Source: Vreelandella subglaciescola (GTDB lineage: Bacteria > Pseudomonadota > Gammaproteobacteria > Pseudomonadales > Halomonadaceae). From it: a DNA stretch of 64,000 nt. Below are positions 8,598-36,861 of the stretch, in pieces (the first letter of the stretch is position 1; each line of letters starts with the position of its first letter). Under the pieces are notes generated by a model that saw nothing but the letters and a program-made list of their open reading frames with translations, ran no database searches and was not told the DNA's origin. The DNA is taken from the NCBI RefSeq assembly GCF_900142895.1, contig NZ_LT670847.1, forward strand, positions 124,001 through 188,000, in the 5' to 3' direction. A program made the translations under genes and the position numbers.

Positions 8598-8714
8598 AGG
8601 GCAATAATATCGCGGCCCGCCTCGTTGTAACTCATCATGGCTTATGGCCTTACCACCTCCGCTACAGCCTGAACTCAACCAGTAAGGCGCTGTCCGTTAA
8701 GGAATTCATTGAGC

Positions 8715-11700
8715 ATGCGTATCCAGACTCTTTTCCAGAAACCCTTGCATCGCTCCATTAACGGCGTGGTCAAAGCCGATCAGCGCGATGACGCCACGAT
8801 ATATCAAGAGCTCGACGAGTACGTTGTGACCAACGAGCTGGAAAAGCACTTTAGTGCCTTTTTTGACTCCTACGCCACGCCGCTCAGCGATCCTTCCATC
8901 GCCAACCGCGTGGGAGTGTGGGTCTCGGGCTTCTTTGGCTCGGGTAAGTCGCACTTTCTTAAAGCGCTTTCCTACCTGCTGGCCAACATCGAAGCCCATG
9001 ACGATGCCGGTAACGTTTACCAAGCAGCGGATTTCTTTGACGAGGGCAAGCTGCACGATGCCATGATCCGGGCCGACATCGCCAAAGCGATACAAGAGCC
9101 AGCGGACGTCATCCTGTTCAACATCGACAGCAAAGCCAGCTCTAACGATGACGGCAACCCGATCCTCAGCGTCTTCCTGCGGGTGTTTAACGAGTCGCAA
9201 GGCTTTAGCGGTGATCATCCGCATATTGCCCACATGGAGCGTCACCTGGCCCAGCGCGGCGTTTATGCCCGCTTTTGCGAGGCGTTCCAAACGGCCAGCG
9301 GCATGGTGTGGAAGGAGGAGCGCGACGGTTACCAGTTCTACCAGGATGACATTGAGCAGGCGGTCAGTCAGGCGCTGGACCTCTCGCCCGACGCTGCCCA
9401 TAAGTGGTTTGAGGAGTCCGAAGAGGCCTTTAGCGTGTCGGTAGAAAACTTCTGCCATTGGGTCAAAGACTATTTGGATGAGCAATCACCCACGCAGCGC
9501 ATTGTCTTCATGGTCGATGAAGTAGGCCAGTTCATCGGCAGCAATACCCGATTGATGCTAACGCTGCAAACGTTGACCGAAAACCTGGGTACCATCTGCG
9601 GCGGTCGGGCCTGGATTGTGGTCACCTCTCAGGCCGATATGGACGCCGTGCTGGGTGAGATGACGGCGACCAAAGCCAATGACTTCTCCAAGATTGCCGG
9701 GCGCTTTAAAACGCGCTTGTCGCTTTCTAGCTCTAACTCTGACGAGGTGATCCGCAAGCGGCTGTTGGCCAAGACGCCAGAGGCGCGTGATGAGCTCGGG
9801 GACGTATTCGACGCCAAGGGCGCGATTCTGCGCAACCAGCTTACCTTTGACAGTACCGGCCCTACGCTGCAAAACGTGGACGATGCAGAAAGCTTCATTG
9901 CCAACTATCCCTTCGTGCCTTACCACTTTCAGCTGGTGCAGAAGGTCTTCGAGGAAATTCGCAAGGTCGGGGCGACCGGCGCGCACCTGGCTTACGGCGA
10001 GCGTTCGATGCTCGATGCGTTCCAGATGGCGGCCAAAGCGGTAGGCGACGATGACGTCGGTGCGCTGGTGCCCATGTATCGTTTTTATAGCTCGGTGGAA
10101 GGTTTTCTGGATACCACCGTCAAGCGCACGATCGACCAGGCAGACGGGAATCCCGCGCTGAATGCCTTCGATGTAGAGATCTTGCGCACCCTGTTTATGA
10201 TCCGCTACGTCGATCTGGTCAAGGGCACTCTCGACAACTTGGTGACGCTCTCCATCACCCGCATCGACGATGATCGGCTGGCCATTCGAGAGCGCCTGGA
10301 AGGCACCCTGGTACGGCTAGAAAAGGAAAGTCTGGTCATTCGCAACGGCGAGGAGTACCTGTTCCTCACCAACGAAGAGCGCGATATCACGCGCCAGATC
10401 AAGGCCACCGACATTACCGGTAGCGATGAAAACAAGGAGTTGGCGAGTCTGATCTTCAGAGACTTGCTGCGCGACCGCAACAAATATCGCTACCCGCTGA
10501 ACAAGAGTGACTACAGCATCGGCCGCTATCTGGACGGCCATACCCTCGACGGCCGTTATCAGGCCCAGCTGCGCGTCGAGGTGGTGTCCCCGCTGGATAT
10601 TGATTATCTCCAGCACTACGGATCTCAAGCCGGTGAGGCGGGGTGCATCTACAAAAGTAGCGAAAACCACGGCCAAGTGTTGCTCAAATTAACTGATGAC
10701 AACGCCTTCTTTGCCGATTTGCGCACCTTCCTGAAGACGGAAAAGTTCATCCGCCTTAATGCCGCCTCCGGCGATAGCAGCGTTGAGCGTATTCTGGCCG
10801 ACCGTGGCCGCGAGAATCAGGAGCGCAAAAAACGCCTGCGCGTGTGGCTGGAAGAGATGCTGCTCGACGCCGACGTTTATGCACTGGGGCATAAGCTCGA
10901 TATTAACCGTCGCCAGCTGAATACCCGGCTGGATGAGGCCTGCCAATATTTGCTGGAAAATACCTACGGCAAGCTTGGCTATCTCAAAACGCTGACGTCT
11001 GACCCAATGCGCGAGCTGCTGGCGGTGCTAACCGCCGATGATATTGGCCAGCTGGGCATCGCGCTGGACGGCGAGGAAGGTAACCCTCAGGCAGTGCATG
11101 AGGTCGAGCAGTACATCAGCCTGCATGGCGGTGAACCGGTAGCGCTTAACCCGCTGCTTGAGCGCTTCAGCGGGCGTCCTTTTGGCTGGCCGCCCGAAGA
11201 GACACTGTTGATTTTGGGCCGCTTAGCCGCGGTAGGGCGACTGACCTTCCACACCGCCGGCCCCGCGCTGTCGGGCAAGGACGCTTTTGATCTGCTCAAT
11301 AACGCCCGGCGTCGTAGCGAAGTTCGGTTGCAGAAAAAGCGCCAGACCGACGATGCGGTGCTGCGCCAGGTGCGTAACCTCACCAAAGAGCTATTTAGCC
11401 AGCTTGGCCCCAACGGGGAAAAGGAGCTTTACGACTTTTACGTCACTCAGTTCGGCCAGTGGCGAAATCACCTGGGAGCCTACAAAAGTAAAACCGATGT
11501 GGGGCACTTTCCTGGGCGCAAAACCATCGAAAACACGCTGAAAGAGGTCGATCGATTACTACGCATTGACGACAGCTTCGATTTCTTCAAGGAGGTCGTC
11601 GCCTGCAAAGAGGCGCTGTTGGACCTTGAAGAAGACTACCGCGACCTGCACGAGTTTTTTACCCGGCAGCTCACCACCTGGCAGCAGCTGGGTCATGCGC

Positions 11701-12437
11701 TGACGCGGTTTCAGCCTAACCGTTCTGCGCTAGAGAAATCACCGGAGGCGCACAAGGCGCTGGCCGAACTGGACAGTATCTATGCCGATGAGGCGCCCTA
11801 CGCCAAGCTGCCCCGGGTTGCCGTGTTGATCGAAACGATTGATGGCGTCAACGGCCAGCTGCTCGAGCAAAAGCGCGAGCATGCTATGGGGTTAATCGAC
11901 AAGCGTATCGCCAGCCTCAGCGCAGAAATCGTCAAGAGTGGCATCGGCACGCCAGAGCTGAGCAACCAGCTGCTGCGCCCGCTGCAGCTGCTCAAAGACG
12001 ATATCGCCACGGTTATGGGCGTGGCGCAGATTTATTTGCTGCAGGGCGAAACCGCTGCCGAGCGCGAACAGGACAGCCTCGATCGGCTTTATCGGGCTCA
12101 GCAGGACGAAGCCGAACGCCAGCGCGCGGTCGCCAAAGCGGCTAACAGCGGTAGCGGACAAAAGGCCCCGGCCACAACGGACAACGCTAGCGGCGGTCAT
12201 CAAGGCACTGATGCCACAGGGCCGAGCCCCACCAGCGTCGTCGATGAAGTGCGCGAGCCCCATCCGCCAGTGGCGCCGCCCAAGCCGGTCGTCAACGTCA
12301 GCGTCAGCCAGGTGCTCAGCCGCACGCACAGCGGTGTTTATCTGGAAAGCCAGCAAGAGGTGGATGCCTTTATCGACAAGCTAAAAGACGAGCTGGATGA
12401 TGCCATCGCCGCCCATAAGCGCATTCGGGTACGTTAA
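8715..12437 (+). CDS. brxC: BREX P-loop ATPase BrxC
   Basis: Large ATPase of BREX (BrxC/PglY group), about 1,240 aa. The N-terminus MRIQTLFQKPLHRSINGVVKA aligns residue for residue with E. coli BrxC, so I place the start at ATG 8715; a TTG two codons upstream (8709) is nearer the AAGGA ribosome site and is the alternative. Walker A is GFFGSGKS at residues 72-79; Walker B-like IVFMVDEVGQF is at about residue 265. The C-terminal fifth has charged helices, then a low-complexity Ser/Ala/Pro linker (about 12,130-12,290) before a short conserved tail. Followed within 10 bp by a gene remnant. Confidence 0.94.
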   Translation: MRIQTLFQKPLHRSINGVVKADQRDDATIYQELDEYVVTNELEKHFSAFFDSYATPLSDPSIANRVGVWVSGFFGSGKSHFLKALSYLLANIEAHDDAGNVYQAADFFDEGKLHDAMIRADIAKAIQEPADVILFNIDSKASSNDDGNPILSVFLRVFNESQGFSGDHPHIAHMERHLAQRGVYARFCEAFQTASGMVWKEERDGYQFYQDDIEQAVSQALDLSPDAAHKWFEESEEAFSVSVENFCHWVKDYLDEQSPTQRIVFMVDEVGQFIGSNTRLMLTLQTLTENLGTICGGRAWIVVTSQADMDAVLGEMTATKANDFSKIAGRFKTRLSLSSSNSDEVIRKRLLAKTPEARDELGDVFDAKGAILRNQLTFDSTGPTLQNVDDAESFIANYPFVPYHFQLVQKVFEEIRKVGATGAHLAYGERSMLDAFQMAAKAVGDDDVGALVPMYRFYSSVEGFLDTTVKRTIDQADGNPALNAFDVEILRTLFMIRYVDLVKGTLDNLVTLSITRIDDDRLAIRERLEGTLVRLEKESLVIRNGEEYLFLTNEERDITRQIKATDITGSDENKELASLIFRDLLRDRNKYRYPLNKSDYSIGRYLDGHTLDGRYQAQLRVEVVSPLDIDYLQHYGSQAGEAGCIYKSSENHGQVLLKLTDDNAFFADLRTFLKTEKFIRLNAASGDSSVERILADRGRENQERKKRLRVWLEEMLLDADVYALGHKLDINRRQLNTRLDEACQYLLENTYGKLGYLKTLTSDPMRELLAVLTADDIGQLGIALDGEEGNPQAVHEVEQYISLHGGEPVALNPLLERFSGRPFGWPPEETLLILGRLAAVGRLTFHTAGPALSGKDAFDLLNNARRRSEVRLQKKRQTDDAVLRQVRNLTKELFSQLGPNGEKELYDFYVTQFGQWRNHLGAYKSKTDVGHFPGRKTIENTLKEVDRLLRIDDSFDFFKEVVACKEALLDLEEDYRDLHEFFTRQLTTWQQLGHALTRFQPNRSALEKSPEAHKALAELDSIYADEAPYAKLPRVAVLIETIDGVNGQLLEQKREHAMGLIDKRIASLSAEIVKSGIGTPELSNQLLRPLQLLKDDIATVMGVAQIYLLQGETAAEREQDSLDRLYRAQQDEAERQRAVAKAANSGSGQKAPATTDNASGGHQGTDATGPSPTSVVDEVREPHPPVAPPKPVVNVSVSQVLSRTHSGVYLESQQEVDAFIDKLKDELDDAIAAHKRIRVR

Positions 12438-12445
12438 GGAACGTC

Positions 12446-12904
12446 ATGGCACCTAGCACAGTGAGTACAATGGAACACTTGCTTGCTCAGCCTGAAGGCA
12501 AGCAGTTGGAGTTCAAGCGCGATATTTCCTCGCTCAAGCCGTTGCTGAAAGCGCTGGTGGCCTTTGCCAACACCGCCGGTGGACAAATGCAGCCCCATCC
12601 GTATCGCCTTCTTCGATGACCGCATTGAGATTGAAAGCCCCGGCCTGCTGATGCCGGGCATGACCGTGGCCGACATGAAAAGCGGTGTCTCGATGATCCG
12701 CAATCCGGTTATTGCCCGCGTGTTTAGCGAGCTTCGGCTGGTGGAGCAGTGGGGGAGCGGAGTTAAGCGCCTCTCGGCAAGTCCGCCATTGCTAAACAGC
12801 TGGGCCACAAAGGCGTATCCGGTGAACTCAACAAGCAGATCAGCCGACTGCAGCAGTACCGCCTTACCGCTGATGGCGAAACGTATCTCAAGGATAAAAT
12901 ATGA
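12446..12904 (+). pseudogene. Remnant of an AlbA_2/HATPase_c_4-type ATP-binding regulator
   Basis: Three pieces in different frames make up one broken gene. From ATG 12446 the first 46 codons give an AlbA_2 (Schlafen-like) start, QLEFKRDISSLKPLLKALVAFANTAGG; the frame then fails and hits TGA at 12617. In the next frame RIAFFDDRIEIESPGLLMPGM ... VEQWGSGVKR is the C-terminal half of the HATPase_c_4 domain. A second frameshift leads into GKSAIAKQLGHKGVSGELNKQ, a winged-helix tail ending at TGA 12904, which overlaps the pglX ATG. Intact relatives have roughly 450-560 aa; only ~150 codons remain, so there is a large internal deletion plus at least two frameshifts. Confidence 0.8.
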
Positions 12905-15900
12905 ACACAGGGAACATCAAGCAGTACGCCCCCAAAGCGCGGACTCGGTTTATCGAGACCATGGCGCGCCAGGCCGCCCGCTACGGTATTACCCCGGGTG
13001 AGCAGGGCGGAGGCCACGCTGCGCCCATGGAGATCCGCGGCGACGTGATGCTGATTACCACGCAGGATGGCCAGACCCACAGCTTCCCCAAGGCGCTGCG
13101 CGGCCCCCGCGAGGCGCTGGCCAAGTGGGTCACCCAGTTGGGCTTTGATCAAGCCATTGAGCAAGCCGCCTACAGCTGGTTCAACCGCCTGTGCGCGATC
13201 CGCTTTATGGAGCTCAAGGGCTATCTGGACCACGGCCGGCGGGTGCTCTCGCATCCGGATCACGAGGGCGGCGTACAGATTCTTGATGATTGCCTGGAGA
13301 TCGAGCTGCCCGGCCTGGCACCTGCCCGGGTGCGCGAGCTAAAACTCGATGGCACCCAGGACGAAACGCTTTACCGTGAGCTGCTGCTGGCCCAGTGCAA
13401 CGCCCTGCATAGCGCCATGCCGTTTCTGTTCGAGCCGCTGGACGACGCCAGCGAGCTGCTGCTGCCGGATAACCTGACCAAGACCGACTCGCTGATCCGC
13501 GAGCTGGTGGAAGCGATTCCCGAGGAAGACTGGCAGGACGTCGAAGTCATCGGCTGGCTCTACCAGTTCTACATCAGCGAGAAGAAGGATCAGGTGATCG
13601 GCAAGGTGGTGAAGAGCGAAGATATTCCCGCCGCCACCCAGCTGTTCACCCCCAACTGGATCGTCCAGTACCTGGTGCAGAACTCCATCGGCCGCCAGTG
13701 GCTGCAGACCTACCCAGGCTCGCCCCTCAAGGCTGAGATGCCGTACTACATCGAGCCCGCCGAGCAAGAGCCCGAGGTGCAGGCCCAGCTGGACGCCATC
13801 ACCCCTGAAAGCCTCGACCCCGAAACGATCAAGGTGCTCGACCCGGCCTGCGGCTCCGGCCATATTCTGGTCGAAGCCTACAACGTGCTGAAGGCCATCT
13901 ATGAGGAGCGCGGCTACCGCAGCCGCGATATTCCCAAGCTGATCCTGGAACATAACCTGTTCGGCCTGGACATCGACGACCGCGCCGCCCAGCTCGCCGG
14001 CTTTGCCCTGCTAATGAAGGCCCGCGAGGACGACCGACGGATATTTAGCCGGATGGGTGACAATAAAGGGCGGCTGAACGTGCTGGCCCTGCAGGGCACC
14101 CAGCACCTGAGCGCCAAGGCACTATGGCGCGATCTCAACCTCACTGGCGACTCGCACCAGGGCCAGTCTCAGGGCCTGTTCGATAGCGAGCAGCAAGACC
14201 TCTCCAGCAATGACAACACCTACAAGGCCATTGCCGACCTGATCGAGCGCTTCCAGGACGCCAAGACCTTCGGCTCGCTGATCGAAGTGCCCAATAGCTT
14301 CGAGGCCCCGCTCAAGACTCTGCTGGACAAGCTGCGCGAGCTGGAAGCCAGCGGCGACACCCTGCAGAAGTCCGCCGCCAAGCAGCTAACTCCCATCGTG
14401 CAGCAGGCGTGGGGTCTGGCGCAGCGGTATGATGCCGTGGTGGCAAATCCGCCGTATATGGGTAGCAAGTACCAAACACCAGCGGTGAAGAAATACCTGA
14501 AAGACGCCTACAAAGGCTACGAGAAAGATCTTTTCTCCGCCTTTATCGTCCGCAATCTAGATTTTGCCAAAGACCACGGCCAGCTTGGCTTTATGACGCC
14601 GTTTGTCTGGATGTTCATTTCCAGCTACGAGCAGCTACGCAAGCGCTTGATTGAAGAGGATGTCATCACCAGCCTGATTCAGCTGGAATACTCAGGCTTT
14701 GATGGCGCAACGGTGCCGATTTGTACCTTTATGCTCAGCAAGGGCCACATTGCCAGCTATACCGGCAGCTATATTCGGCTGTCTGATTTCCGAGGCGCGG
14801 TAAATCAGGGGCCGAAAACGCTGGAGGCCATTCAGGACCGCGAGTGTGGCTGGTTCTACGAAGCCAAGCCGGATGATTTCAAGAAGATTCCGGGAAGTCC
14901 GGTTGCGTATTGGTTAAGTAGCGCAGTGAAAGATGCTTTTTCAAACAATAAACCACTTGCACAGTATGCATTTTCAGATGGAAAAAATATTACAGGTGAT
15001 AACGAGAAATATCAGAGGTTTTTTTGGGAAACTTCGGTCTCAAAAATTGGTGACGCGAAAAAATGGAGGTTCATATCAAAAGGGGGCGGGTTTAAAAAGT
15101 GGACTGAAAGTAATGATGTGACTATAGATTGGTCTGAAAAAGCTCGTGACCACTATCGGGAAAGTAAAATTGGGAGGATCATACCTAACAGTATATGGTT
15201 TCGAGAGGGTATTACTTGGGGCTTGATAACCTCTTCGCTACCAAGCTTCAGGTTTCTTGATGAGAATACAACCTTTAGTGATGTAGGCATTTTTTTCAAA
15301 AAAAATGATGATATATTGCCTGTGTTGGCCTTTTTGAATTCCAAAATTTGCCATTACTTTCTCAATGTGATGAATCCAACCCTAAACTATCCTGTGGAAG
15401 TTGTTTTAAGAATCCCTGTCTCTAAAGCCATAGAAAAAAAGTTAGGCTATGAAAATGGCAAGAGAATACAAGAAATTGATCCATGGAAAATTTCATTTGA
15501 TGAGTCAACATGGGGTTTTTCCTTACTCCCATTATTGAATAAGAAGGTTTTTTATAAAAGTATTGCAGGTTCATATAGTCGGCTTCGTAAGCATTGGCAT
15601 GAGATGATTCTTGAGGTTCAACAACTGGAGGAAGAGAACAATCGCACCTTTATCGACGTCTATGGCCTTCAGGGTGAGATGACTCCCTGCATCTCCCTGA
15701 AAGAAATTACTCTCACATGCAACCCCCACTACCGCTATGGTGGCAACCGCTCCGAGGAAGAGCTGGAAACCTTACTTCAGTGCGACACGCTCAAAGAGCT
15801 GGTCAGCTATGCCATCGGCTGCATGATGGGCCGCTACTCGCTGGATAAGCCCGGCCTGATCCTCGCCAGTCAAGGCGAAACTCTCCGCGACTACTTCGCC

Positions 15901-16554
15901 CGAATCCCCGACCCCAACTTTGCACCGGATGAAAACGCCATCATCCCGTTGACCGATCAGGAGTGGTTCCCCGACGACGCCACCAATCGCTTCCGTGATT
16001 TCGTTAGCACCGCCTGGGGCGAAGATCACCTGCAGGAAAACCTCGACTTCGTTGCCGAAAGCCTTTGCCTGCACGCGATCAAACCCAAGAAAGGCGAAGC
16101 CGCACTGGAAACCATCCGCCGCTATATGAGCGCCCAGTTCTTCAAAGACCACCTGCGTACCTACAAGAAGCGCCCCATCTACTGGCTGTTCAGCTCCGGC
16201 AAGCAGAAAGCCTTCGAGTGCCTGATCTACCTGCACCGCTACAATGAAAGCACCCTGGCCGAGATGCGCACCGACTACGTCATCCCGCTGACCACCAAGC
16301 TCGCCAGCTACGTCGAGACGTTGGAAAAAGACAAAGACGCCAGCGCCTCCGCTGCCGACACCAAGCGCATCGAAAAACAGCTGAGCAAGCTCCACAAACA
16401 GCAGGCCGAGCTCAACACCTTCGACGAAAAACTCCGCCACTACGCCGATCAGCGCATCGCGCTGGATCTCGACGATGGCGTTAAGGTCAACTACGGGAAA
16501 TTTGGGGATCTGCTGGCGGAAGTGAAGGACGTCACAGGAGTTAAGCCAACATGA
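12901..16554 (+). CDS. pglX: BREX adenine-specific DNA methyltransferase PglX
   Basis: N6-adenine methyltransferase that marks host DNA at the BREX site and takes part in phage exclusion; 1,217 aa. Opens MNTGNIKQYAPKARTRFI as in E. coli PglX. The AdoMet motif DPACGSGH is at residues 314-321 and the catalytic NPPY at 516-519. From about nucleotide 14,900 to 15,650 (residues ~667-917) base composition drops sharply to AT-rich with many AAA/TTT codons, then returns to GC-rich; this interval corresponds to the target-recognition region. A coiled coil follows (residues ~1,140-1,180). Its TGA overlaps the ATG of the next gene by 4 bp, implying translational coupling. Confidence 0.95.
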   Translation: MNTGNIKQYAPKARTRFIETMARQAARYGITPGEQGGGHAAPMEIRGDVMLITTQDGQTHSFPKALRGPREALAKWVTQLGFDQAIEQAAYSWFNRLCAIRFMELKGYLDHGRRVLSHPDHEGGVQILDDCLEIELPGLAPARVRELKLDGTQDETLYRELLLAQCNALHSAMPFLFEPLDDASELLLPDNLTKTDSLIRELVEAIPEEDWQDVEVIGWLYQFYISEKKDQVIGKVVKSEDIPAATQLFTPNWIVQYLVQNSIGRQWLQTYPGSPLKAEMPYYIEPAEQEPEVQAQLDAITPESLDPETIKVLDPACGSGHILVEAYNVLKAIYEERGYRSRDIPKLILEHNLFGLDIDDRAAQLAGFALLMKAREDDRRIFSRMGDNKGRLNVLALQGTQHLSAKALWRDLNLTGDSHQGQSQGLFDSEQQDLSSNDNTYKAIADLIERFQDAKTFGSLIEVPNSFEAPLKTLLDKLRELEASGDTLQKSAAKQLTPIVQQAWGLAQRYDAVVANPPYMGSKYQTPAVKKYLKDAYKGYEKDLFSAFIVRNLDFAKDHGQLGFMTPFVWMFISSYEQLRKRLIEEDVITSLIQLEYSGFDGATVPICTFMLSKGHIASYTGSYIRLSDFRGAVNQGPKTLEAIQDRECGWFYEAKPDDFKKIPGSPVAYWLSSAVKDAFSNNKPLAQYAFSDGKNITGDNEKYQRFFWETSVSKIGDAKKWRFISKGGGFKKWTESNDVTIDWSEKARDHYRESKIGRIIPNSIWFREGITWGLITSSLPSFRFLDENTTFSDVGIFFKKNDDILPVLAFLNSKICHYFLNVMNPTLNYPVEVVLRIPVSKAIEKKLGYENGKRIQEIDPWKISFDESTWGFSLLPLLNKKVFYKSIAGSYSRLRKHWHEMILEVQQLEEENNRTFIDVYGLQGEMTPCISLKEITLTCNPHYRYGGNRSEEELETLLQCDTLKELVSYAIGCMMGRYSLDKPGLILASQGETLRDYFARIPDPNFAPDENAIIPLTDQEWFPDDATNRFRDFVSTAWGEDHLQENLDFVAESLCLHAIKPKKGEAALETIRRYMSAQFFKDHLRTYKKRPIYWLFSSGKQKAFECLIYLHRYNESTLAEMRTDYVIPLTTKLASYVETLEKDKDASASAADTKRIEKQLSKLHKQQAELNTFDEKLRHYADQRIALDLDDGVKVNYGKFGDLLAEVKDVTGVKPT

Positions 16555-17735
16555 TAAAAAGAATCTATATCGACAACTTCAAGTCGCTGATGGATTTTGA
16601 GCTGAATCTGGCGGCGTTCACCTGCCTGGTGGGGCTAAACGGGGCGGGTAAATCCACGGTGCTCCAGGCGCTGGATTTTATCTCTCAGCAGATGCGGGGC
16701 GATATAGACGAGTGGCTGTTTCAGCGGCAGTGGCAGCCAAGTGATATTGGCTCCAAGCTTACCGCCAAGAAAAATATTGAGATTGCCCTGCAGCTGGAAA
16801 ACCAGGACCACGGCCTAATCGAATGGAAAGCCAGCTTTAACCGCCATTCCTTGCGCTGCACAAGAGAAGAAGCCACCAGCAACGGCAAGCTGGTGCTCAA
16901 GGTAGAAGACGGCGAGTTTTTCATTAATAAGAATGTCAGCTCTGAAGGTTCGCGTAGCGCAAGCCATAGCATCATGTTTGATTACCAAGGCTCGATTCTG
17001 TCTCAGCTGAAGCAAAACCAGCTTGGCCCGGGGCTGCAGGTATTAAAAGAGACGTTGGCCAATATCCGCTCGCTGGACCTGCTCTCGCCTGAACATCTTC
17101 GCCAGCGCACCCGCGACTCCGCCGGGCATCTGGGGCTGGGCGGGCAAAAACTCTCGGCCTACCTACACGAGCAAGGCAGTGAAGCGCGCCAGCGGCTGCT
17201 GACAAAGCTGCAAACCGTATACCCACAGCTGACCAGTATTGATACCCGTTCGATGCGCTCGGGGTGGAAGCACCTGGATATCGCCGAGCAGTTTGCGAAA
17301 AAAATGCTGAAAACACCGGCACGCCACGTCAACGACGGCTTGTTGCGCCTGCTCGCCGTGCTGTCTCAGTTGGAATCAGACGAGCAGTTTTTGCTGTTTG
17401 ATGAAATCGAGAATGGCATCAACCCCGAGCTGGTCGAGTTCCTGGTGGATGCGCTTGTCGAGAGTGAGCATCAGGTAATGGTCACCACACACAGCCCGGT
17501 GATTCTTAATTACCTGGAAGATGAAGTCGCCAAGCAGGGCGTGATCTATCTCTACAAGAATGCCAGCGGTGCGACCCAGGCAATCCACCTGTTTGAAATT
17601 CCGTCGCTGGCGGAAAAGCTGCGCGTAATGGGGCCAGGGGAAGCCTTTCTTGATACCCGGCTCACCGAGCTGGAAGACGAAATACAGGGCCTAAGCCAGC
17701 AGGAGGGCAAGGATGCATCTGCTACTGAGCGGTGA
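16551..17735 (+). CDS. AAA ATPase (OLD/RecF-like) coupled to pglX
   Basis: 394 aa, SMC/RecF/OLD-type ATPase (AAA_21 group). Walker A GLNGAGKST at residues 28-36 follows the typical IKRIYIDNFKSL opening; an ABC-signature-like GHLGLGGQKLSAYL lies near residue 190-205; Walker B FLLFDEIENG is near 279-287, followed by VMVTTHSPVIL with the switch His. No nuclease domain is fused. The start codon overlaps the pglX stop (ATGA) and the end overlaps the TOPRIM-like gene by 23 bp. Not a BREX core gene. The architecture resembles the ATPase halves of two-gene abortive systems such as PARIS, but homology to AriA cannot be shown here. Confidence 0.8.
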   Translation: MIKRIYIDNFKSLMDFELNLAAFTCLVGLNGAGKSTVLQALDFISQQMRGDIDEWLFQRQWQPSDIGSKLTAKKNIEIALQLENQDHGLIEWKASFNRHSLRCTREEATSNGKLVLKVEDGEFFINKNVSSEGSRSASHSIMFDYQGSILSQLKQNQLGPGLQVLKETLANIRSLDLLSPEHLRQRTRDSAGHLGLGGQKLSAYLHEQGSEARQRLLTKLQTVYPQLTSIDTRSMRSGWKHLDIAEQFAKKMLKTPARHVNDGLLRLLAVLSQLESDEQFLLFDEIENGINPELVEFLVDALVESEHQVMVTTHSPVILNYLEDEVAKQGVIYLYKNASGATQAIHLFEIPSLAEKLRVMGPGEAFLDTRLTELEDEIQGLSQQEGKDASATER

Positions 17736-18465
17736 AGGCCCCAGCGATATCGGCGTATGCTATCCGGCTGCTGAATACTGCCAATCGGAAAACTTCAAGC
17801 CGGGGCCAATGGCGTGGCTGGCTGATCAGTGGGTAGAAAGGTGCCAAGGGTATAATTTATCGCACCTTGAAAGCGGGCTGGTGCACTTCGTCAACGAAAA
17901 ATACTTGGCAAAAAACAAACCTGATCCCGCTAAAAAAGCCATGCGGCTGCGGGGCAAGCGTACGCCCGGTGAAACGGCTTATTACTTCTACAACGCCCGT
18001 GCGCTGGCCAAGCGCGCGATCTCCCTGGCGCACGAGGTCGACGATCAGGTAGTGGCGGTGCTGTTCCGCGACGCTGACGGCACCGCCTCAGCCGGGCGCG
18101 GAGAATGGCAAGCCAAGTACGACTCCATGCTTGAAGGCTTCGAGGTTGAAGGCTTTGTCTATGGCGTTGCCATGCTGCCCCAACCAAAGTCAGAAGCCTG
18201 GCTGCTTTGCGCGCTAAACCCCCAGTCGCCTTATCAGCACTGCGCCAGGCTGGAGGAGGAATCAGGTAACGACAAAAGCCCGTATTCGCTGAAAAGCCAG
18301 CTGGATGTTGCTTGCCAGGGCAATACCTCGGCCGACCAGCTAGCCGAAGTGGTCCAGGCAGGCGGCGTCCAGTGGGAAAAGATTGACATGCCTTCATTGA
18401 GTGCGTTTAAGAGCCGGTTGGAAGAAGTGGTCGCACGGGCGGTAAAGCGGAAAAACCAAGTGTAA
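17713..18465 (+). CDS. TOPRIM-like (DUF4276-like) partner of the AAA ATPase
   Basis: 250 aa, family not certain. The opening MHLLLSGEGPSDIG places an acidic residue (E8) at the end of the first strand, and VVAVLFRDADGT (near residues 113-124) supplies a DxD; together these are the TOPRIM metal-binding pattern. PKSEAWLLCAL is a further conserved-looking block, as in DUF4276-type proteins encoded beside AAA ATPases. It overlaps the ATPase gene by 23 bp in another frame, so the two are made together. Likely role: metal-dependent nuclease effector gated by the ATPase. That role is inference. Confidence 0.6.
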   Translation: MHLLLSGEGPSDIGVCYPAAEYCQSENFKPGPMAWLADQWVERCQGYNLSHLESGLVHFVNEKYLAKNKPDPAKKAMRLRGKRTPGETAYYFYNARALAKRAISLAHEVDDQVVAVLFRDADGTASAGRGEWQAKYDSMLEGFEVEGFVYGVAMLPQPKSEAWLLCALNPQSPYQHCARLEEESGNDKSPYSLKSQLDVACQGNTSADQLAEVVQAGGVQWEKIDMPSLSAFKSRLEEVVARAVKRKNQV

Positions 18466-18501
18466 GCAGCAAATCCAAAAAGCGAGTATCAAGGAGCAGC
18501 A

Positions 18502-18822
18502 ATGAGCTATCCCATCGGTCGCTGGCGTATCACCTGGATGGAAACGTGGGACCAGGAATTTGTCGACCTGATCGAGCCTGGCCACTTCCGATTCGATGAA
18601 AACGGGCTGGGTTTTTTTATTTTCGGTGCTGTTGAGGGGCAGGTTGATTACCGCCTATCAGACGATGGCCAGCGCATCGAGTTTTCCTGGTCGGGTAATG
18701 ATGATGGCGATGAAAAATCCGGCCGCGGCTGGTTTGAGCTGACATCCTCAAACACCGCCAAGGGGCGATTTTTTATCCACTGCGGCGATGAGTCGGCGGT
18801 GGAAGTACAGCTTCAAGCCTGA
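18502..18822 (+). CDS. Small uncharacterised protein in BREX cargo
   Basis: 106 aa, not recognised as a named family. No signal peptide or membrane segment. It is rich in aromatic and acidic residues, with a beta-strand-like layout: GRWRITWMETWDQEF, FRFDENGLGFFIFGAVEGQVDYR, IEFSWSGNDDGDEKSGRGWFEL, GRFFIHCGDESAVEVQL. This suggests a small beta barrel or immunity-like fold. An AAGGAGCAGCA ribosome site precedes the ATG. It lies 36 bp after the TOPRIM-like gene and could be its third component, or an independent orphan. Confidence 0.65.
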   Translation: MSYPIGRWRITWMETWDQEFVDLIEPGHFRFDENGLGFFIFGAVEGQVDYRLSDDGQRIEFSWSGNDDGDEKSGRGWFELTSSNTAKGRFFIHCGDESAVEVQLQA

Positions 18823-18991
18823 GCAGTGACACGGATAAGATCCCCCGGCTGTTCGCTCGCAATGTTGGGCCCTGCGATGACAAGGGGCGGTGGGAGTGAT
18901 GGAGTGCCGGGATTTTTGCTTCAGGATCTACTAGAATTGTTTTTGTCAGATATTTTTGGTTTTTAATCGTTTTTGGGGCTGAATAATCATT

Positions 18992-20548
18992 TTGAGCGCG
19001 ATAACAGGTGATGAAATCGGTTATGCCTGGCTGGCGGCACACTACAAAGTGCGAACCATTCAGCCGCTACCTGTGGAGAGCTGTATCGGACGCAGGCGCC
19101 AGACCCATCAACAGGCTGGCCGTTGCGAGGAGTTCTATACGGAAGCGATGCGCCCTCAAGCTTCGCTGGGCGCGCACCTAACGTTCGCGTTGAAGCATGA
19201 AGGGGTGGTGCTGGAGTTTCTGGCAAGATTGTTTGCGCTCGTACCACCAGAGGCGCTTGCTGAATGGATATGTTCTGAACCGACAGGCCAGTATGCCCGG
19301 CGTGCCGGTTTTTTTTACGAGTGGCTGACCGGTAATACCCTGTTAGTTGAGGGTGTTGGCGGTAACTATCGTTATGCTCTGGATCCTAGGCTTTTCGTTA
19401 CTGCGGTCACCGGGGTGCGTCGCAACCGCCGTTGGCGGATTAATGACAACCTGCCGGGGAGTCCTGAGTTCTGCCCTCTTGTGCGTCGTACAACGCCATT
19501 GCTGGAAGCCGGCCAGTACGACATCGCCGATAGACTCGCGGCGATGGAGGTTGAGTTCGGGCCAGATATTATTCGTCGCAGCGCCGTGTGGCTGACCATT
19601 AAAGAGAGTCGTGCCAGTTTTGTGATTGAGCACGAAGGGCAGCACCAGGACCGAATACGCCGGTTCGCCTCCGCCATTGAGCGTTATTGCGGGCGGTTGG
19701 AGTCGCCCCTCGGTGAAAGTGCCCTGAAGGAGTTTCAGTCGGCCATTCTGGGTACCACGACGGTCCGGACGGGCTTGCGCCAGTCTCCGGTTTTCGTCGG
19801 AAGTAGTTCGATCGATTACGGTGCGGTCGTACATTACGTTTGCCCCCACTGGGAGTGGTTGCCAGGCATGCTGAAAGGGCTGCAACAATTTCTGGCACAC
19901 ACTGATGCGCAAGATGCAGTGGTGCGCGCTGCTGTGGCAAGTTTTGGATTTGTGTTTATTCACCCACTGGCAGACGGCAATGGGCGAATCTCTCGCTTTC
20001 TGGTGAATGACACCCTCCGCCACGACGGTGTGGTGCCTGAGCCCTTCATTTTGCCGATTTCAGCGGCGATAACCTCCTCAGCGGTAAGGCGCGCCGAGTA
20101 TGACCAAATTCTTGAGCGCTACTCTGGGCCATTGATGTCGGCTTGCCGTGATTCGGCCGACTTCAGCCATGAGCGTGTGGTGTATGCAGATGGTATTGAA
20201 TCGGACTTTGTTTTTGATGCCTATGACGAAGCGGCGCCGTTCTGGCGCTACCCAGACTTGACGGAGCAATCGGAATACCTGTTTGCGATCATTCGCCATA
20301 CCCTGGAGCACGAGATGCATCATCAGGCTGCCTTTCAGCGGGCATGGTATCGCACGCGGGAGGCGGTCAAAGATTGGGTGGAAGGCCCTGATGATCACAT
20401 CGACCGGATAATCCGGTCGATACGCCAGCATGGCCGAGTGAGTGGCAAATTGACGAAGGAGTTTCCTGTCATAGCGCAGGCTGGCCTGGCATCTGAATTA
20501 GAGCGGGTGGTGGCTGAGGGGTTTGCTGATTTGCCAGATGCGCTTTAG
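18992..20548 (+). CDS. Fic-domain AMPylase-type protein in BREX cargo
   Basis: 518 aa. The Fic core motif HPLADGNGRISR begins at residue 324, with Leu where Phe is usual. Upstream, SFVIEH at residues 209-214 resembles the class II inhibitory motif (S/TxxxE-G/N), so the enzyme is probably autoinhibited, with His in place of Gly/Asn. The N-terminal third (LPVESCIGRRRQTH) and the C-terminal region match a large-Fic subgroup common in gammaproteobacteria. Start is TTG 18992, with no in-frame ATG nearby. The 169 bp upstream is AT-rich and may hold its own promoter. The target protein is unknown. Confidence 0.85.
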   Translation: MSAITGDEIGYAWLAAHYKVRTIQPLPVESCIGRRRQTHQQAGRCEEFYTEAMRPQASLGAHLTFALKHEGVVLEFLARLFALVPPEALAEWICSEPTGQYARRAGFFYEWLTGNTLLVEGVGGNYRYALDPRLFVTAVTGVRRNRRWRINDNLPGSPEFCPLVRRTTPLLEAGQYDIADRLAAMEVEFGPDIIRRSAVWLTIKESRASFVIEHEGQHQDRIRRFASAIERYCGRLESPLGESALKEFQSAILGTTTVRTGLRQSPVFVGSSSIDYGAVVHYVCPHWEWLPGMLKGLQQFLAHTDAQDAVVRAAVASFGFVFIHPLADGNGRISRFLVNDTLRHDGVVPEPFILPISAAITSSAVRRAEYDQILERYSGPLMSACRDSADFSHERVVYADGIESDFVFDAYDEAAPFWRYPDLTEQSEYLFAIIRHTLEHEMHHQAAFQRAWYRTREAVKDWVEGPDDHIDRIIRSIRQHGRVSGKLTKEFPVIAQAGLASELERVVAEGFADLPDAL

Positions 20549-20661
20549 CTTTTTCCTGAACGCATTTTGTCTGTAGCAAAAAAAGAAGCAGCAAAAATAG
20601 CCCGGCTCGATTGATGTCGGTATTGGGTACGCACTTATTCAGTGTTTTCTAAGGAGGCTAA

Positions 20662-23322
20662 ATGCAGCTCGATCAACTCCAGCAGGGGCTTCAATACGCT
20701 TTCTTCACCGACGGCCACCGCTTGGTCTTCTGGTACGACGCTCCGGGCCACTTTGCTGACGTGTTGGATGAGCTGTCGCTAGATGGCGTGCAGGTCCTCA
20801 ACATGGCGGGGCAGTCCACCTTTGGCGTAAAACTGCGCCTGGAGCTGGACGAGCCGGATACACCGACGCTGCTCTATTTCCCTTACGCCGAGCCTGCGCC
20901 TGAGGATGACTGGCTGTTGGATATCAAGCTCTACTCCGGGCGTTTCTATGCCGACCGGATCTCGATGATCTTCAACGAGCTGGGACTCACCCGGCACGTG
21001 CTGCGCGAGCACCTGGGCCAGCGGCAGGCTTTCTTGGGTAGCCGCAAGCGCATCGATGCGCTGAAGCGTTTGGTCACACCCAGCGTCGATGAAGAGGGCG
21101 TGGACCTCGCAATGTGCGCGGCGGTGTTAGGGGCACAGGCGTCGGATGTGGCTACGCTGCTGTTTCACCTGGCCACCGAGGCGGTCAAAGAAGAGACCGG
21201 GCTTGAAGCCAACCCCACAGCGCTAAACGAGATGGATAAGTACGGCTTGGTGCCGGCGCTGGTCCAGGCGTTGCAGGTGGAAGTGGGCTATTCCGCGACT
21301 CAGGAAGAGCCCGATCTTGAAAAAGAAGACGGTAAGGCACCGCTACACTTTGGCCAGCTGATGCTGCGCTTGCTGACCACCGGCTACTGCGAGAGCATTT
21401 CCGCTATTCCCGACTGGGCGCAAAGCCACGCCATTGCTTCGGTGAATGCGCGGGCTACCTCGCGGGCACTGCTGTCGCGCTGGCGCGATAGCTCGAGCTT
21501 TTACCCGGCCTTTGATGTCATATCCGGCTGGGTAGCCGACGCGCTACGCATTGAAGATAAAATCCGCGACGTGCCTCTGGAGCAACTGGCCAACGCCGCA
21601 ACGTTTGAAGCGGTGGAACAGCAGGTCATTATCGATCTTTGCCAAGCCGTTCCCCAGGCGGATAGCCGTGATCTGGCCGTGTTTCGCGGTGTGATTGCCA
21701 ACCGGTTGGACGGCTACTGGGCTTCCCGCCATAAGAACGACGAGCGGCGCATCCGTTATCGCCAGCTTTATGCCGCGCTGAGTGCGGCGATTGATCTGTT
21801 CGTGCTGCGCCAGCAATACAGCGACGGCTTTCACTATCAGAGCGTTGAAGCGCTGTACCACGCTTACTGCGCAGAGCTTTATCGCTTCGATACGGCCTAC
21901 CGTCACTATGCCGTCGCCTCTGACAGCGCCGGGGTGGAGCTACTCAAACGCCTGGATGACGCGGTGGAGTGCTGCTACGACGAATGGTTTCTGGGCCAGC
22001 TCACGCGTAACTGGAGCGAGCGGGTGGATGCCGAAGGGCGGCTCGCCGACTGGAAGCTACCGCGGATTCCCCAGCAGCAGCACTTCTTCCGGGAAGCCGT
22101 TCAGCCACAGCTGGATGCCCACCGCAATAAGCGCCTGGTGGTGATCATTAGCGATGCCTTTCGCTTTGAGGCCGCCGAAGAGCTGCGCGAGCGGATCAAT
22201 GCCAAGCGCTACAGCGAGGCTACCCTAAGCAGCCAACTTGGCGTCGTGCCCAGCTACACCACCTTAGGCATGGCCTCGCTATTGCCACACCGCGAGCTGG
22301 CGTATAAACCCGACAGCGATACCGTGCTGGTCAACGGGCAGTCGAGCCAGGGCACTGCTAACCGCAGCAAGCTGCTTAGCGATGCGTTGAACGGGCAGGC
22401 CATGGCGGTCACCGCCGAGGAGGCCAGGGGCTGGTCGCGCGGGCAAGGCCGTGAGGCGCTCAAAGGCATGCAGCTGGTGTACGTCTACCACAACGTGGTG
22501 GATGCCCGAGGCGATACCGCCAGTACCGAGAGCGAGACGTTTGCCGCGGTGGAAGATGCCATTGATGAGCTTGACCAGCTAACGCGCAAGGTCTTGATGC
22601 ACTTCAATACCAGCACGGTACTGGTGACCGCCGACCACGGCTTTCTGTTTCAGCGCGGCAAGCTGGATGCCACCGACCGGACGGCGCTGGGTGAAAAACC
22701 GGCTATGGCCTTCAAGAGCAAGAAGCGCTATGTGTTGAACTCGCCGCAGGCAGGGCGCCGCCTACCCGATAACCCCAGCGTCTGGCATGGCCACACCCGC
22801 GATACCGCCGGTACGAGCTGCGATACCGAGTTTTGGATTCCCAAGGGCGCACATCGCTTCCACTTTGTCGGTGGGGCGCGTTTCGTGCACGGCGGCATTA
22901 TGCCCCAGGAAATCGCGGTGCCGGTACTGACCGTGAAGCAGCTGCGTGGGGAGAAGGCCGAAAAGCGTACTCGGCGTAAGGTCGGGGTGATCTCGCCCAA
23001 GGCTTCGATGAAGATGGTCAATAACATCCAACGCTTTGAGCTGATGCAGACCGAGGCGGTGAGCGAGCAGCACCGCCCGGTCACGTTGGCCGTGGCCATT
23101 TACGCGGGTGATGCGATTGTTTCTAGCGAAGAGGCCGTCACCTTCGACAGTGCCAGTGGTGATATGAACGACCGCATGAAGTTGGTGCGGCTATCGCTTG
23201 CGGGTACCGACTTTGACCGCAAGCGCGACTATTTTTTGGTGCTGCGCGATAAAGACCTGGGCACGGAGTTGGAGCGCTACCGGGTGGTGATTGACCTGGC
23301 GTTTACCGATGACTTTTTCTAA
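20662..23322 (+). CDS. pglZ: BREX alkaline-phosphatase-like protein PglZ
   Basis: Core BREX protein of the alkaline phosphatase superfamily (type A PglZ), 886 aa. The N-terminus MQLDQLQQGLQYAFFTDGHRLVFWYD is diagnostic. Metal-binding motifs of the phosphatase fold are visible: ISDAFRFEAAEEL with Asp near residue 498 and TADHGFLF with D658/H659, followed by a distal His-containing strand (HRFHFVGGARFVHGG). AAGGAGG ribosome site before ATG 20662. A 113-bp gap follows the Fic gene, so pglZ begins a second transcription block or is reached by read-through. Confidence 0.95.
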   Translation: MQLDQLQQGLQYAFFTDGHRLVFWYDAPGHFADVLDELSLDGVQVLNMAGQSTFGVKLRLELDEPDTPTLLYFPYAEPAPEDDWLLDIKLYSGRFYADRISMIFNELGLTRHVLREHLGQRQAFLGSRKRIDALKRLVTPSVDEEGVDLAMCAAVLGAQASDVATLLFHLATEAVKEETGLEANPTALNEMDKYGLVPALVQALQVEVGYSATQEEPDLEKEDGKAPLHFGQLMLRLLTTGYCESISAIPDWAQSHAIASVNARATSRALLSRWRDSSSFYPAFDVISGWVADALRIEDKIRDVPLEQLANAATFEAVEQQVIIDLCQAVPQADSRDLAVFRGVIANRLDGYWASRHKNDERRIRYRQLYAALSAAIDLFVLRQQYSDGFHYQSVEALYHAYCAELYRFDTAYRHYAVASDSAGVELLKRLDDAVECCYDEWFLGQLTRNWSERVDAEGRLADWKLPRIPQQQHFFREAVQPQLDAHRNKRLVVIISDAFRFEAAEELRERINAKRYSEATLSSQLGVVPSYTTLGMASLLPHRELAYKPDSDTVLVNGQSSQGTANRSKLLSDALNGQAMAVTAEEARGWSRGQGREALKGMQLVYVYHNVVDARGDTASTESETFAAVEDAIDELDQLTRKVLMHFNTSTVLVTADHGFLFQRGKLDATDRTALGEKPAMAFKSKKRYVLNSPQAGRRLPDNPSVWHGHTRDTAGTSCDTEFWIPKGAHRFHFVGGARFVHGGIMPQEIAVPVLTVKQLRGEKAEKRTRRKVGVISPKASMKMVNNIQRFELMQTEAVSEQHRPVTLAVAIYAGDAIVSSEEAVTFDSASGDMNDRMKLVRLSLAGTDFDRKRDYFLVLRDKDLGTELERYRVVIDLAFTDDFF

Positions 23323-23398: not shown

Positions 23399-23476
23399 CG
23401 TTGGTAGACAGTTTTGGTAGATGCTTTTTATAGATCGTTTTTATGAACGGCTTTTATGGACAGTTTTTATGGACAG
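23399..23476 (+). repeat. Degenerate ~13-bp tandem repeats at the brxL start
   Basis: About six imperfect units, the last two nearly identical (CTTTTATGGACAG, TTTTTATGGACAG), preceded by TTTTTATGAACGG, CTTTTTATAGATCG, TTTTGGTAGATG and GTTGGTAGACAG. Three units carry ATG. Because the unit is 13 bp, successive ATGs fall in different frames, and only some are in frame with brxL. Confidence 0.7.
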
Positions 23477-25556
23477 TGAAACGCAATTTGATGTGTCCCG
23501 TGGCACCGAGACTGGCCTGGAAGCTGATCTCGATACGCTGCTGAATAGCCACTTCGCCGGGCGGGTGGTGCGTAAGGACCTCACCCAGCGGGTCAAGGAA
23601 GGCGCTAACGTGCCGGTCTACGTGCTGGAGTACCTGCTTGGCATGTACTGCGCTTCCGATGATGCGGAGGTGATCGAGCAGGGACTGGTCAACGTCAAAA
23701 AGATCCTGGCCGAGAATTACGTACGCCCCGATGAGGCCGAGAAGGTTAAGTCACTGGTTCGCGAGCGCGGCAGCTTTAAGGTGATTGACCGGGTCACGGT
23801 GCGGCTCAACGAGAAGCAGGATTGCTATGAAGCGGCGTTTAGTAATCTGGGCATCCGCGACGCCGAAATCTCTGCGGGTATCGTCAAAGCGCACGAGAAG
23901 CTGTTGGTGGGAGGGATCTGGGTCATCGCCACGCTGAGCTACTTTCACGAAGAGGGTCAGCGCGGCTCGCCGTTCGGTGTGAGCCAGCTCAAGCCGATCC
24001 AGATGCCCCACATGAATATGGACGAGCTCTTCGAGGGGCGGCGTGGCTTTACAACCGAGCAGTGGCGCGAAGTACTGGTGCGCTCTATCGGAATGGAACC
24101 CACGTCGCTCGACGAAACCGTGCAGTGGCACTTGCTGGCGCGGATGATTCCGTTTGTTGAAAATAACTATAACGTCTGCGAGCTGGGGCCACGGGGCACC
24201 GGTAAGAGCCATATCTACAAGGAGTGTTCACCCAACAGCATTCTGGTGTCTGGCGGGCAAACCACGGTGGCTAATCTGTTCTATAACATGAGCTCGCGGC
24301 GCATCGGGCTGGTGGGCATGTGGGACCTGGTGGCCTTCGATGAAGTCGCCGGCATTTCGTTCAAGGACAACGACGGCGTGCAGATCATGAAGGACTACAT
24401 GGCCTCGGGGTCTTTCGCCCGCGGACGCGAGCAGATGGAAGCGTCGGCCTCCATGGTGTTTATCGGCAACATAAACCAAAGCGTTGAGTCGCTGGTAAAA
24501 ACTAGCCATCTGCTGACGCCGTTTCCCGATGCGATGATCGATGCCGCCTTCTTCGACCGCTTTCACGCCTACATTCCGGGCTGGGAAATTCCCAAAATGC
24601 GGCCGTCGTTCTTTACCCAGCGCTACGGCTTCATCGTCGACTACCTGGCCGAATTTTTCCGCGAGATGCGCAAACGCAGCTTCGCCGACGCCATCGATCA
24701 ATATTTCAGCCTGGGCGACAACCTCAACCAGCGCGATGTGATTGCCGTGCGCAAGACGGTCTCGGGGCTGCTCAAACTGCTTTACCCGCACGGCGGCGAG
24801 TCACCCGGGCTCGCCAAGGAAGAGGTGCGCCCCTGTTTGGAATATGCGCTGGAGGTTCGCCGCCGGGTCAAAGAGCAGCTCAAGAAAATCGGCGGCATGG
24901 AGTTTTACGACGTCCACTTCAGCTACATCGACAAGGAAACGCTGGAAGAACACTTTGTGTCGGTCAAAGAGCAGGGCGGCGGCGGCCTGATCCCCGAAGG
25001 CCCGGGCAAGCCGGGTACGGTGCATACCATTGGCCTCAGCGATAAGGGCATGCCCGGCGTCTATCGGCTGGAGCTGCAGATCACCGCCGGCAGCGGCAAA
25101 CTCGCTACCTCCGGGTTGTGGAACTCCAGCGCTGCCAAAGAACAGGTGAAAATCGCCTTCGACTATTTCAAGGCCAACGCGCGCGGTATCAGCGCTTCCA
25201 GCAAGGTGCTCGACCACGATTACCACCTGCACGTGGTGGAGCTGCAAAACACCGGCCCGCTGCGTGACCTGGCGTTGGCCAGCCTGGTCGCGTTTTCTTC
25301 GGGGCTGTTGGGCAAGCCCACGCAGGGCCAGATGGTGGTGTTGGGGGACATGAGCTTGGGTGGCAGCCTCAAACCCGTGGAAAGCCTCGCCGAGTGCCTT
25401 CAGGTGGCCTTTGACGCCGGTGGCAAGCGGGTGAAGTTACCCATGAGCAGCGCCGTGGACATAGCGACCATTCCCGCCGAGCTCTTCACCAAGTTTCAGA
25501 CCAGCTTTTATTCCGAGCCCGTCGATGCCGTAGTTAAAGCGTTGGGAGTCGAGTGA
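23469..25556 (+). CDS. brxL: BREX Lon-like ATPase BrxL
   Basis: Last BREX core gene; an AAA+ protein with a C-terminal Lon-like domain that binds DNA. From ATG 23469 (MDSETQFDVS) it has 695 aa; an in-frame ATG at 23421 would add 16 residues, but these are encoded by the tandem repeat and look non-protein. Walker A GPRGTGKS is at residues 240-247, Walker B LVAFDEVAG near 290. The C-terminal Lon-type domain has QGQMVVLGDMSLGGSLKPV but no canonical Ser-Lys protease dyad motif, as is known for BrxL. No Shine-Dalgarno sequence is evident. Confidence 0.93.
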   Translation: MDSETQFDVSRGTETGLEADLDTLLNSHFAGRVVRKDLTQRVKEGANVPVYVLEYLLGMYCASDDAEVIEQGLVNVKKILAENYVRPDEAEKVKSLVRERGSFKVIDRVTVRLNEKQDCYEAAFSNLGIRDAEISAGIVKAHEKLLVGGIWVIATLSYFHEEGQRGSPFGVSQLKPIQMPHMNMDELFEGRRGFTTEQWREVLVRSIGMEPTSLDETVQWHLLARMIPFVENNYNVCELGPRGTGKSHIYKECSPNSILVSGGQTTVANLFYNMSSRRIGLVGMWDLVAFDEVAGISFKDNDGVQIMKDYMASGSFARGREQMEASASMVFIGNINQSVESLVKTSHLLTPFPDAMIDAAFFDRFHAYIPGWEIPKMRPSFFTQRYGFIVDYLAEFFREMRKRSFADAIDQYFSLGDNLNQRDVIAVRKTVSGLLKLLYPHGGESPGLAKEEVRPCLEYALEVRRRVKEQLKKIGGMEFYDVHFSYIDKETLEEHFVSVKEQGGGGLIPEGPGKPGTVHTIGLSDKGMPGVYRLELQITAGSGKLATSGLWNSSAAKEQVKIAFDYFKANARGISASSKVLDHDYHLHVVELQNTGPLRDLALASLVAFSSGLLGKPTQGQMVVLGDMSLGGSLKPVESLAECLQVAFDAGGKRVKLPMSSAVDIATIPAELFTKFQTSFYSEPVDAVVKALGVE

Positions 25557-36578: not shown

Positions 36579-36861
36579 GTTTTCTCGCCTTTTGATTTAA
36601 CGGGGGTAAATGTCAAAGCTACGACAGAGTCATTTGTCAGGCGCGCCGCCAGCTGGCACCTGCTAAGGTTTTTCTTCTGCACGTCATGGGGGTGCTTTCC
36701 GGCAGCATGTCGATGCCAAGTCAATTTCCACCTTAACCTTATCGATACTCTTTTTATCCCGCCTTATTCACCGGGCTGAGACAGAAAAGAAGATGGCGAG
36801 CAGTTTCTCTTGTAGAATCAATATGTTCCTAACCGAACTTGACTCAAGAGGACCACTCGCC

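Follow-up and report, generated by a model that had tools for sequence, protein, structure and literature searches.

We analysed a 64,000-nucleotide stretch of the Vreelandella subglaciescola genome (contig NZ_LT670847.1, positions 124,001 to 188,000; hereafter, the window), which contains a complete type-1 bacteriophage exclusion (BREX) operon with brxA, brxB, brxC, pglX, pglZ of type A and brxL, in this order. Between pglX and pglZ lie four additional genes, none of them a BREX core gene, and the first two of these, M25A and M25B (M25AB for the pair), are the main subject of this work. The pair is a member of PDC-M25, a phage defence candidate (PDC) of the PADLOC database (PADLOC-DB), with both models, PDC-M25A and PDC-M25B, matched over nearly their full length. 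M25AB is a rare, mobile and autonomous module that occurs both in and out of BREX and, inside BREX, always beside pglX in the loci inspected. The features of the operon are as follows (aa, amino acids).

7239..7847, plus strand: brxA (Pfam BrxA, 161.8 bits)
7989..8597, plus strand: brxB (Pfam BrxB, 126.1 bits)
8709..12437, plus strand: brxC (Pfam BREX_BrxC domains)
12901..16554, plus strand: pglX, BREX-1 adenine methyltransferase (NCBIfam NF033452, 1395 bits)
16555..20650, no strand: cargo slot, where blastn similarity to related operons breaks off and then returns
16551..17735, plus strand: PDC-M25A, OLD/PtuA/Rad50-like ATP-binding cassette (ABC) ATPase, 394 aa (PADLOC, 551.5 bits)
17713..18465, plus strand: PDC-M25B, putative TOPRIM/DUF4276-like effector, 250 aa (PADLOC, 319.1 bits)
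18502..18822, plus strand: 106-aa protein, relatives of which recur in the same slot within the window's family
18992..20548, plus strand: Fic protein PDC-S24, 518 aa, TTG start (PADLOC, 558.7 bits; Pfam Fic)
20662..23322, plus strand: pglZ, type A (NCBIfam TIGR02687, 814.8 bits)
23421..25556, plus strand: brxL (NCBIfam TIGR02653, 1154.6 bits)

The cargo genes between pglX and pglZ

An earlier sequence-only reading of this DNA had described four non-core genes in the pglX-pglZ interval; their open reading frames (ORFs) and coordinates were verified. The two overlaps that it described are also present: the start of M25A overlaps the pglX stop by 4 bp (ATGA), pglX ending at 16554, and M25A and M25B share 23 bp. 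The accompanying statement that both genes depend on pglX translation is, by comparison, an inference from these overlaps and not an observation. The overlap between M25A and M25B is a trait of the module itself: among the 21 loci measured, the spacing ranges from -23 to +7, with an overlap in 16, and 13 of these 16 lie outside BREX. In the four copies located 3' of pglX, the pglX-to-M25A spacing is -4, -4, -8 and +6, the last value belonging to L006 (loci are given by our L numbers); M25A overlaps the pglX stop in the window, L004 and L007. The cargo is presumably co-transcribed with the operon; a promoter scan of the slot was uninformative (1 site versus 2.4 expected). The Fic gene is preceded by a gap of 169 bp. 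We also considered the cargo as an island of odd composition and rejected this, the guanine-plus-cytosine (GC) content of 0.54-0.57 being inside the range of most of the operon.

PDC-M25 is a candidate label, and no difference of the window pair from it was found. The PDC names reportedly originate from Payne et al.; "PDC-M25" and "PDC-S24" were absent from the main texts of the literature searched, supplements and preprints being outside its scope.

The Fic motif, HPx.[DE]GNGR..R, is intact in the Fic protein (HPLADGNGRISR at residue 324), so that an adenylyltransferase-type role is predicted as likely. The family is broad, with 264 plasmid records, and the possibility that it is BREX-specific was discarded, given that all three inspected plasmid homologues have no annotated BREX gene within 6 kb. 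The 106-aa protein was called an orphan in the sequence-only reading, a description that does not hold: relatives were found in 97 of 72,556 plasmid records and in 3 of 11 related BREX slots (L045, L050 and L051, 79-82% identical). It has no PADLOC-DB match at E<=0.1; in the one plasmid inspected, from Halomonas KO116, the gene is located near transposase and metal-resistance genes.

M25B residues and relation to published systems

The TOPRIM signature consists of a catalytic E and a DxD motif, and conserved residues of this type are present in the alignment of M25B: E8, D120 and D122 are identical in all 19 aligned homologues, as are G7, G9, D12, S160, E161 and W163. The sequence-only reading had pointed to E8, D118 and D120; E8 was correct, whereas the acidic pair is D120/D122, residue 118 being F. 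With E8 and the DxD retained in all 19 homologues, the lack of conservation that the same reading had envisaged as counter-evidence is not what we find. In the AlphaFold model of M25B (9 sequences; predicted local distance difference test score, pLDDT, 58), strand 2-7 ends at E8 and strand 113-118 stops just before D120-x-D122. Strand ends that place E and DxD in this manner represent the arrangement of the TOPRIM domain.

The 19 homologues were scanned singly against 24,736 Pfam families at E up to 1. DUF4276 (PF14103), which we take to be a TOPRIM family, was the sole family matched by more than one homologue: five matched it weakly (best E 0.0035), and four other families were matched by one each. 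A profile alignment of M25B with DUF4276 brings the E, DxD and second-E regions into register; in one setting the score was 21.3, compared to <=5.5 for 20 column shuffles. The number of aligned columns was 148 versus a maximum of 98 among 43 controls in the default mode, and 197 versus 208 at a lax setting. We regard this profile comparison as suggestive only.

Several results weigh against a TOPRIM assignment. The default-mode score of 23.3 lies between those of two unrelated controls (25.1 and 21.7), and the score falls to 16.6 and 18.5 when one or the other half of the DUF4276 set is used; the AlphaFold model is poor at its pLDDT, and the fold search returned no TOPRIM match; the assignment rests on the motif and on weak profile matches. 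The M25B of the window itself has no Pfam match up to E 1, DUF4276 included, and a PDB sequence search with the M25B profile gave nothing meaningful. Lumazine synthases, racemases and macrodomains dominated the top VIA matches, and HSP70 dominated those of Foldseek, which we read as uninformative. On balance, M25B is likely, although unproven, to be a TOPRIM/DUF4276-like nuclease.

The combination of an ABC ATPase with a putative TOPRIM-like nuclease supports placing the cargo pair in the same architecture class as the phage anti-restriction-induced system (PARIS) and WonAB. In PARIS, a hexamer of AriA sequesters AriB and frees it once triggers are sensed, according to PMC12409363. The PARIS parallel drawn in the sequence-only reading stands for the two-gene architecture of an ABC ATPase with a small putative TOPRIM protein, and not for identity: M25AB is not PARIS because M25B has no AriB match. 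At E<=0.1, M25B matches only the PDC-M25B models of PADLOC-DB, whereas the Oceanisphaera AriB scores 77 bits against the AriB model; M25B has no profile match to DUF4435, and the best BLASTP E-value against the Oceanisphaera AriB is 4.8. It should be noted that the profile test is weak for remote TOPRIM kinship, since DUF4276 and DUF4435 are likewise unlinked. M25A belongs to the same ATPase superfamily as AriA, with 85 bits for AriA versus 551 for PDC-M25A, and AriA chains match weakly in a profile search (E 3.8e-5). PARIS can occupy the pglX-pglZ slot too, and the two systems co-exist in one BREX operon on an Oceanisphaera plasmid (L008, 8836-16263), with M25AB before pglX and the PARIS pair after it.

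WonAB is described as a prophage-borne pair of OLD-ABC and nuclease that aborts infection (PMC12137116). It resembles M25AB as an ABC ATPase/nuclease gene pair that is sometimes found on phage-like contigs; however, WonB is presented in that source as a PD-(D/E)xK nuclease, whereas the M25B pattern is of the TOPRIM type, E...DxD. BrxU and other BREX cargo share with M25AB the location of a non-core defence gene in the pglX-pglZ interval (PMC11341690), but BrxU is another enzyme, and the related loci studied here have HEC-05, KwaB, ThsB1 and others.

The cargo slot and the occurrence of M25AB with and without BREX

A PglZ match at E<=1e-30 was found in 17 of 201 genomes of the window's family, its own included. 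We compared 11 of the 16 other PglZ loci, leaving out five distant PglZ (33-35% identity). The slot is filled in nine (L045-L053), decayed in L054, and has no cargo in L055. In all nine filled loci, blastn similarity to the window stops at 16,527-16,559; it returns at 20,650-20,651 in five loci (11-12 bp before the pglZ ATG) and at 20,674-20,701 in four. The cargo of these slots is listed below.

L045: 106-aa gene and an unassigned ORF; pglZ 5' fragment
L046: KwaB
L047: HEC-05
L048: ThsB1
L049: protein similar to the HEC-05 of L047, judged by that resemblance
L050: SoFic-type Fic and 106-aa gene
L051: HEC-05-like protein (partial, 113 bits) and 106-aa gene
L052: PDC-M16B and others
L053: four genes, including a partial PDC-M72B match (64 bits)

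None of the 11 related BREX loci carries M25AB. Went et al. report intervening genes in ~7,000 of ~9,000 genomes with co-localised pglX and pglZ (PMC11341690) and, together with the filled and variable slots seen here, this indicates that the pglX-pglZ interval is a general cargo site. One way of exchange is illustrated by L052 (1-18001) and L106, in which brxA-brxB-brxC-Schlafen-pglX are followed by two genes, a pglZ 5' fragment (residues 1-87), a pglX 3' fragment (residues 1111-1215), four genes and the full pglZ. Because the duplicated ends diverge from the other copies of the locus (89.6% and 77.5% DNA identity), a pglX'-cargo-pglZ' segment appears to have been captured from another BREX lineage, e.g., via a single crossover, and the outcome looks like two successive cassettes in one slot. 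The pglZ 5' fragment in the slot of L045 spans 187 bp (80%). No duplicate scar was detected in the window, where the best self-match is 22 bp (E 0.02).

There are 25 known M25B loci, of which 24 were inspected, one Moellerella plasmid being left unopened; the near-duplicates L010/L011 and L023/L024 are counted separately. Genomes with M25B number 1 of 293 in the order, 2 of 369 in the class and 8 of 398 in the phylum (the window's own genome counted); M25B was also found in 7 of 72,556 plasmid records and in 8 viral contigs. This sampling is small and uneven, and the BREX/non-BREX ratio varies with the collection: of the copies inspected, 5 of 6 from plasmids lie in BREX, compared to 0 of 8 from viral contigs. 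Wider surveys (2 of 78 genomes for the class of G710, 2 of 239 for the window's class) added no loci; a viral-contig scan with the window M25B alone found nothing, four later scans gave no new family members, and the Moellerella M25B had no match among phage records. An M25B relative with 74% identity is encoded on a contig of a V. subglaciescola metagenome-assembled genome. M25A is directly 5' of M25B in 22 of the 24 inspected loci, in one of them split into two ORFs, and in L031 and L032 only M25B fragments and no M25A were seen.

Seven of the 24 loci are in BREX, all with M25AB adjoining pglX, in the following arrangements: (i) between pglX and pglZ, in the window, L006 (Acinetobacter) and L007 (Azotobacter); (ii) directly 3' of pglX, in L004 (Vreelandella), where the contig ends inside M25B and pglZ is out of view; (iii) between brxC and pglX, in L008 (Oceanisphaera) and in L010 and L011 (Moellerella). 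For the other 17 loci (one plasmid, eight viral contigs and eight genome loci), the sequence available around the pair contains no BREX core gene (tblastn, E<=1e-4, and for the plasmid also its annotation), except for a pglX tail in L025. Applied to six positive loci, the same search recovered BREX genes in every one; contig ends restrict the view, chiefly in L029, L032, L035, L036 and L038. Among the eight host genomes of non-BREX copies that were searched for PglZ, one of them just 65% complete, six gave no match at E<=0.001; of the remaining two, one has a match below the cut-off, and G774, the host of L032 (a 3.5-kb contig), has real matches on other contigs. Prevalence away from BREX, which the sequence-only reading had accepted as an argument against its own proposal, is thus largely what the inspected loci display. 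Some of the non-BREX copies share their contigs with phage genes (terminase, tape-measure, primase or Zot-like). In two viral contigs (L035, 5316-7998, and L036, 5226-7998), M25AB directly follows an integrase-like ORF, identified by eye, which suggests an integrase-linked cargo site outside BREX. In a Hydrogenimonas plasmid (L009, 2393-4942), a gene for an HNH endonuclease lies immediately 3' of M25AB, possibly as a three-gene form.

L025 is the closest non-BREX relative of the window pair (M25B, 52% identity). In this locus, 20 codons at 12058-12117 match pglX residues 1194-1213 of 1217 (80% identical, E 7.7e-5); this tail is on the same strand, has its own short open frame and ends ~40 bp upstream of the M25A start. 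The last 60 pglX residues had no match in any other non-BREX locus examined, and the L025 genome gave no PglZ match. The pair probably exited BREX and took the end of pglX along, or the surrounding BREX genes were lost; under either scenario, the pair was kept without BREX. A tree was built from 21 concatenated M25A-M25B pairs, with L020, L031 and L032 omitted and the constraint groups named before the tree was seen; its long branches are L022, L009 and L029. This tree needs three changes of BREX/non-BREX state, and the approximately unbiased (AU) test rejects a single clade both of all seven BREX copies (p-AU 1.3e-7) and of the four copies following pglX (p-AU 9.2e-5). Hence, the BREX association of M25AB changed more than once. 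They can be read either as gains in all three cases or as a single gain plus two losses, and L025 indicates that exits from BREX do happen. Given the 17 loci without a BREX core gene in the sequence available, the six hosts without a PglZ match and the mere pglX tail of L025, pglX is not required for the retention of the pair.

Explanations of the embedded pair and surroundings of the operon

We favour, with a rough probability of 0.62, the explanation that an exchangeable slot holds a self-contained sensor-effector, M25AB, serving as a second line in BREX. The slot is filled here by three units, namely, the M25AB module, the 106-aa accessory gene and the PDC-S24 Fic gene. M25A, as an OLD/PtuA-type ABC ATPase, would sense an infection cue and hold or license M25B; M25B would be a TOPRIM-like metal-dependent nuclease acting via E8, D120 and D122, and would then shut down the infected cell or cut phage nucleic acid. 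The roles of M25A as sensor and M25B as executor are proposed from the PARIS mechanism. M25AB would probably form a second line of defence within BREX, and BREX is not needed for its persistence. The back-up-effector idea is not new: OLD-ABC/nuclease pairs in BREX are already in print as back-up effectors, the argument from Ocr included (PMC12839542). That source and our analysis have the general idea in common; in its main text (supplements being outside the scope), DUF4276 and Fic occur 0 times as whole words.

According to another explanation, to which the sequence-only reading also subscribed, the pair is a guard: M25A would monitor PglX or detect anti-BREX proteins (Ocr-like DNA mimics), and would fire M25B when BREX is blocked. 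This is unlikely in our estimate. The architecture resembles PARIS, the BREX-borne copies do not form one clade and still occupy slots flanking pglX in 7 of 7 inspected cases, M25A overlaps the pglX stop in three of these, and in Oceanisphaera M25AB and PARIS flank pglX on opposite sides. Position by itself is, however, weak evidence for a guard, because unrelated cargo occupies the same slot. Moreover, the sequence available for 17 of 24 loci contains no BREX core gene, six of the eight host genomes of such copies that were searched gave no PglZ match, and L025 kept the pair after pglX had shrunk to a tail. As reported in PMC11341690, the BREX-embedded PARIS of Salmonella D23580 was activated neither by Ocr nor by its homologue Gp5 and was inactive against the phages tested, and single deletion of ariA or ariB in the Salmonella BREX gave tenfold higher defence against phage TB34. 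We make no claim that PglX is guarded, because the pair is found without BREX in most of the inspected loci.

A more specific variant has M25AB as a second BREX tripwire with a DUF4276-type effector, recruited more than once beside pglX and reporting inhibition of PglX or BREX via a trigger other than that of PARIS; we rate it slightly below the guard in its general form. If this were true, the Oceanisphaera operon would hold a pair of complementary alarms, each for a different class of anti-BREX proteins, and in L025 the alarm would have outlived BREX, with the pglX tail retained as a leader. Irrespective of the explanation, one BREX operon can stack M25AB with PARIS, and one non-BREX copy retains a trace of pglX. 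Because the same module occurs with and without BREX, comparison can be used to test whether embedded modules guard the system that hosts them.

Doubtful, too, and somewhat more so, is that M25AB is a neutral passenger in a recombination hotspot, functionally unconnected to BREX and present because the operon flanks are easily targeted by homologous recombination. Cargo that differs between related loci and the partial pglZ or pglX duplicates within the slot in 2 of 11 loci are compatible with this explanation. Against it, nine of nine filled slots match a PADLOC defence or candidate family or the recurrent 106-aa gene (the L051 and L053 matches are partial), which suggests selection for defence cargo. 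Finally, M25AB as an extra BREX subunit that alters restriction by PglX/PglZ instead of acting alone would conflict with the explanation that we favour and is suggested by the overlapping reading frames within the operon, but it is very improbable given that 17 of 24 copies are without a BREX core gene in the sequence available and that the pair is missing from all 11 related BREX loci.

The interval between brxC and pglX contains one further feature:

12489..12837, plus strand: decayed Schlafen AlbA_2/HATPase_c_4 remnant in the brxC-pglX slot, with DNA matches to the full-length copies of L050 and L053

A HATPase_c_4 domain was found by Pfam at this site, in the ORF 12564-13001; the full-length Schlafen AlbA_2/HATPase_c_4 gene is present in L007, L050 and L053, and L106 has a near-full match. 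Within pglX, the middle part (14470-15700 of the window) is largely unalignable at the DNA level to related loci, whereas the flanks are ~78-88% identical; this part, the presumed target recognition domain, is probably a swapped specificity domain. The GC content drops to ~0.43-0.44 at 14,500-16,000, inside pglX. Immediately 3' of brxL, there is a weak transposase-like remnant (25844-26413), and further downstream are three ORFs of equal length, 482 aa (36793-38241, 42355-43803 and 44264-45712), the first of which matches a DDE group-1 transposase. These ORFs near the operon point to surroundings that are rich in insertion sequences.

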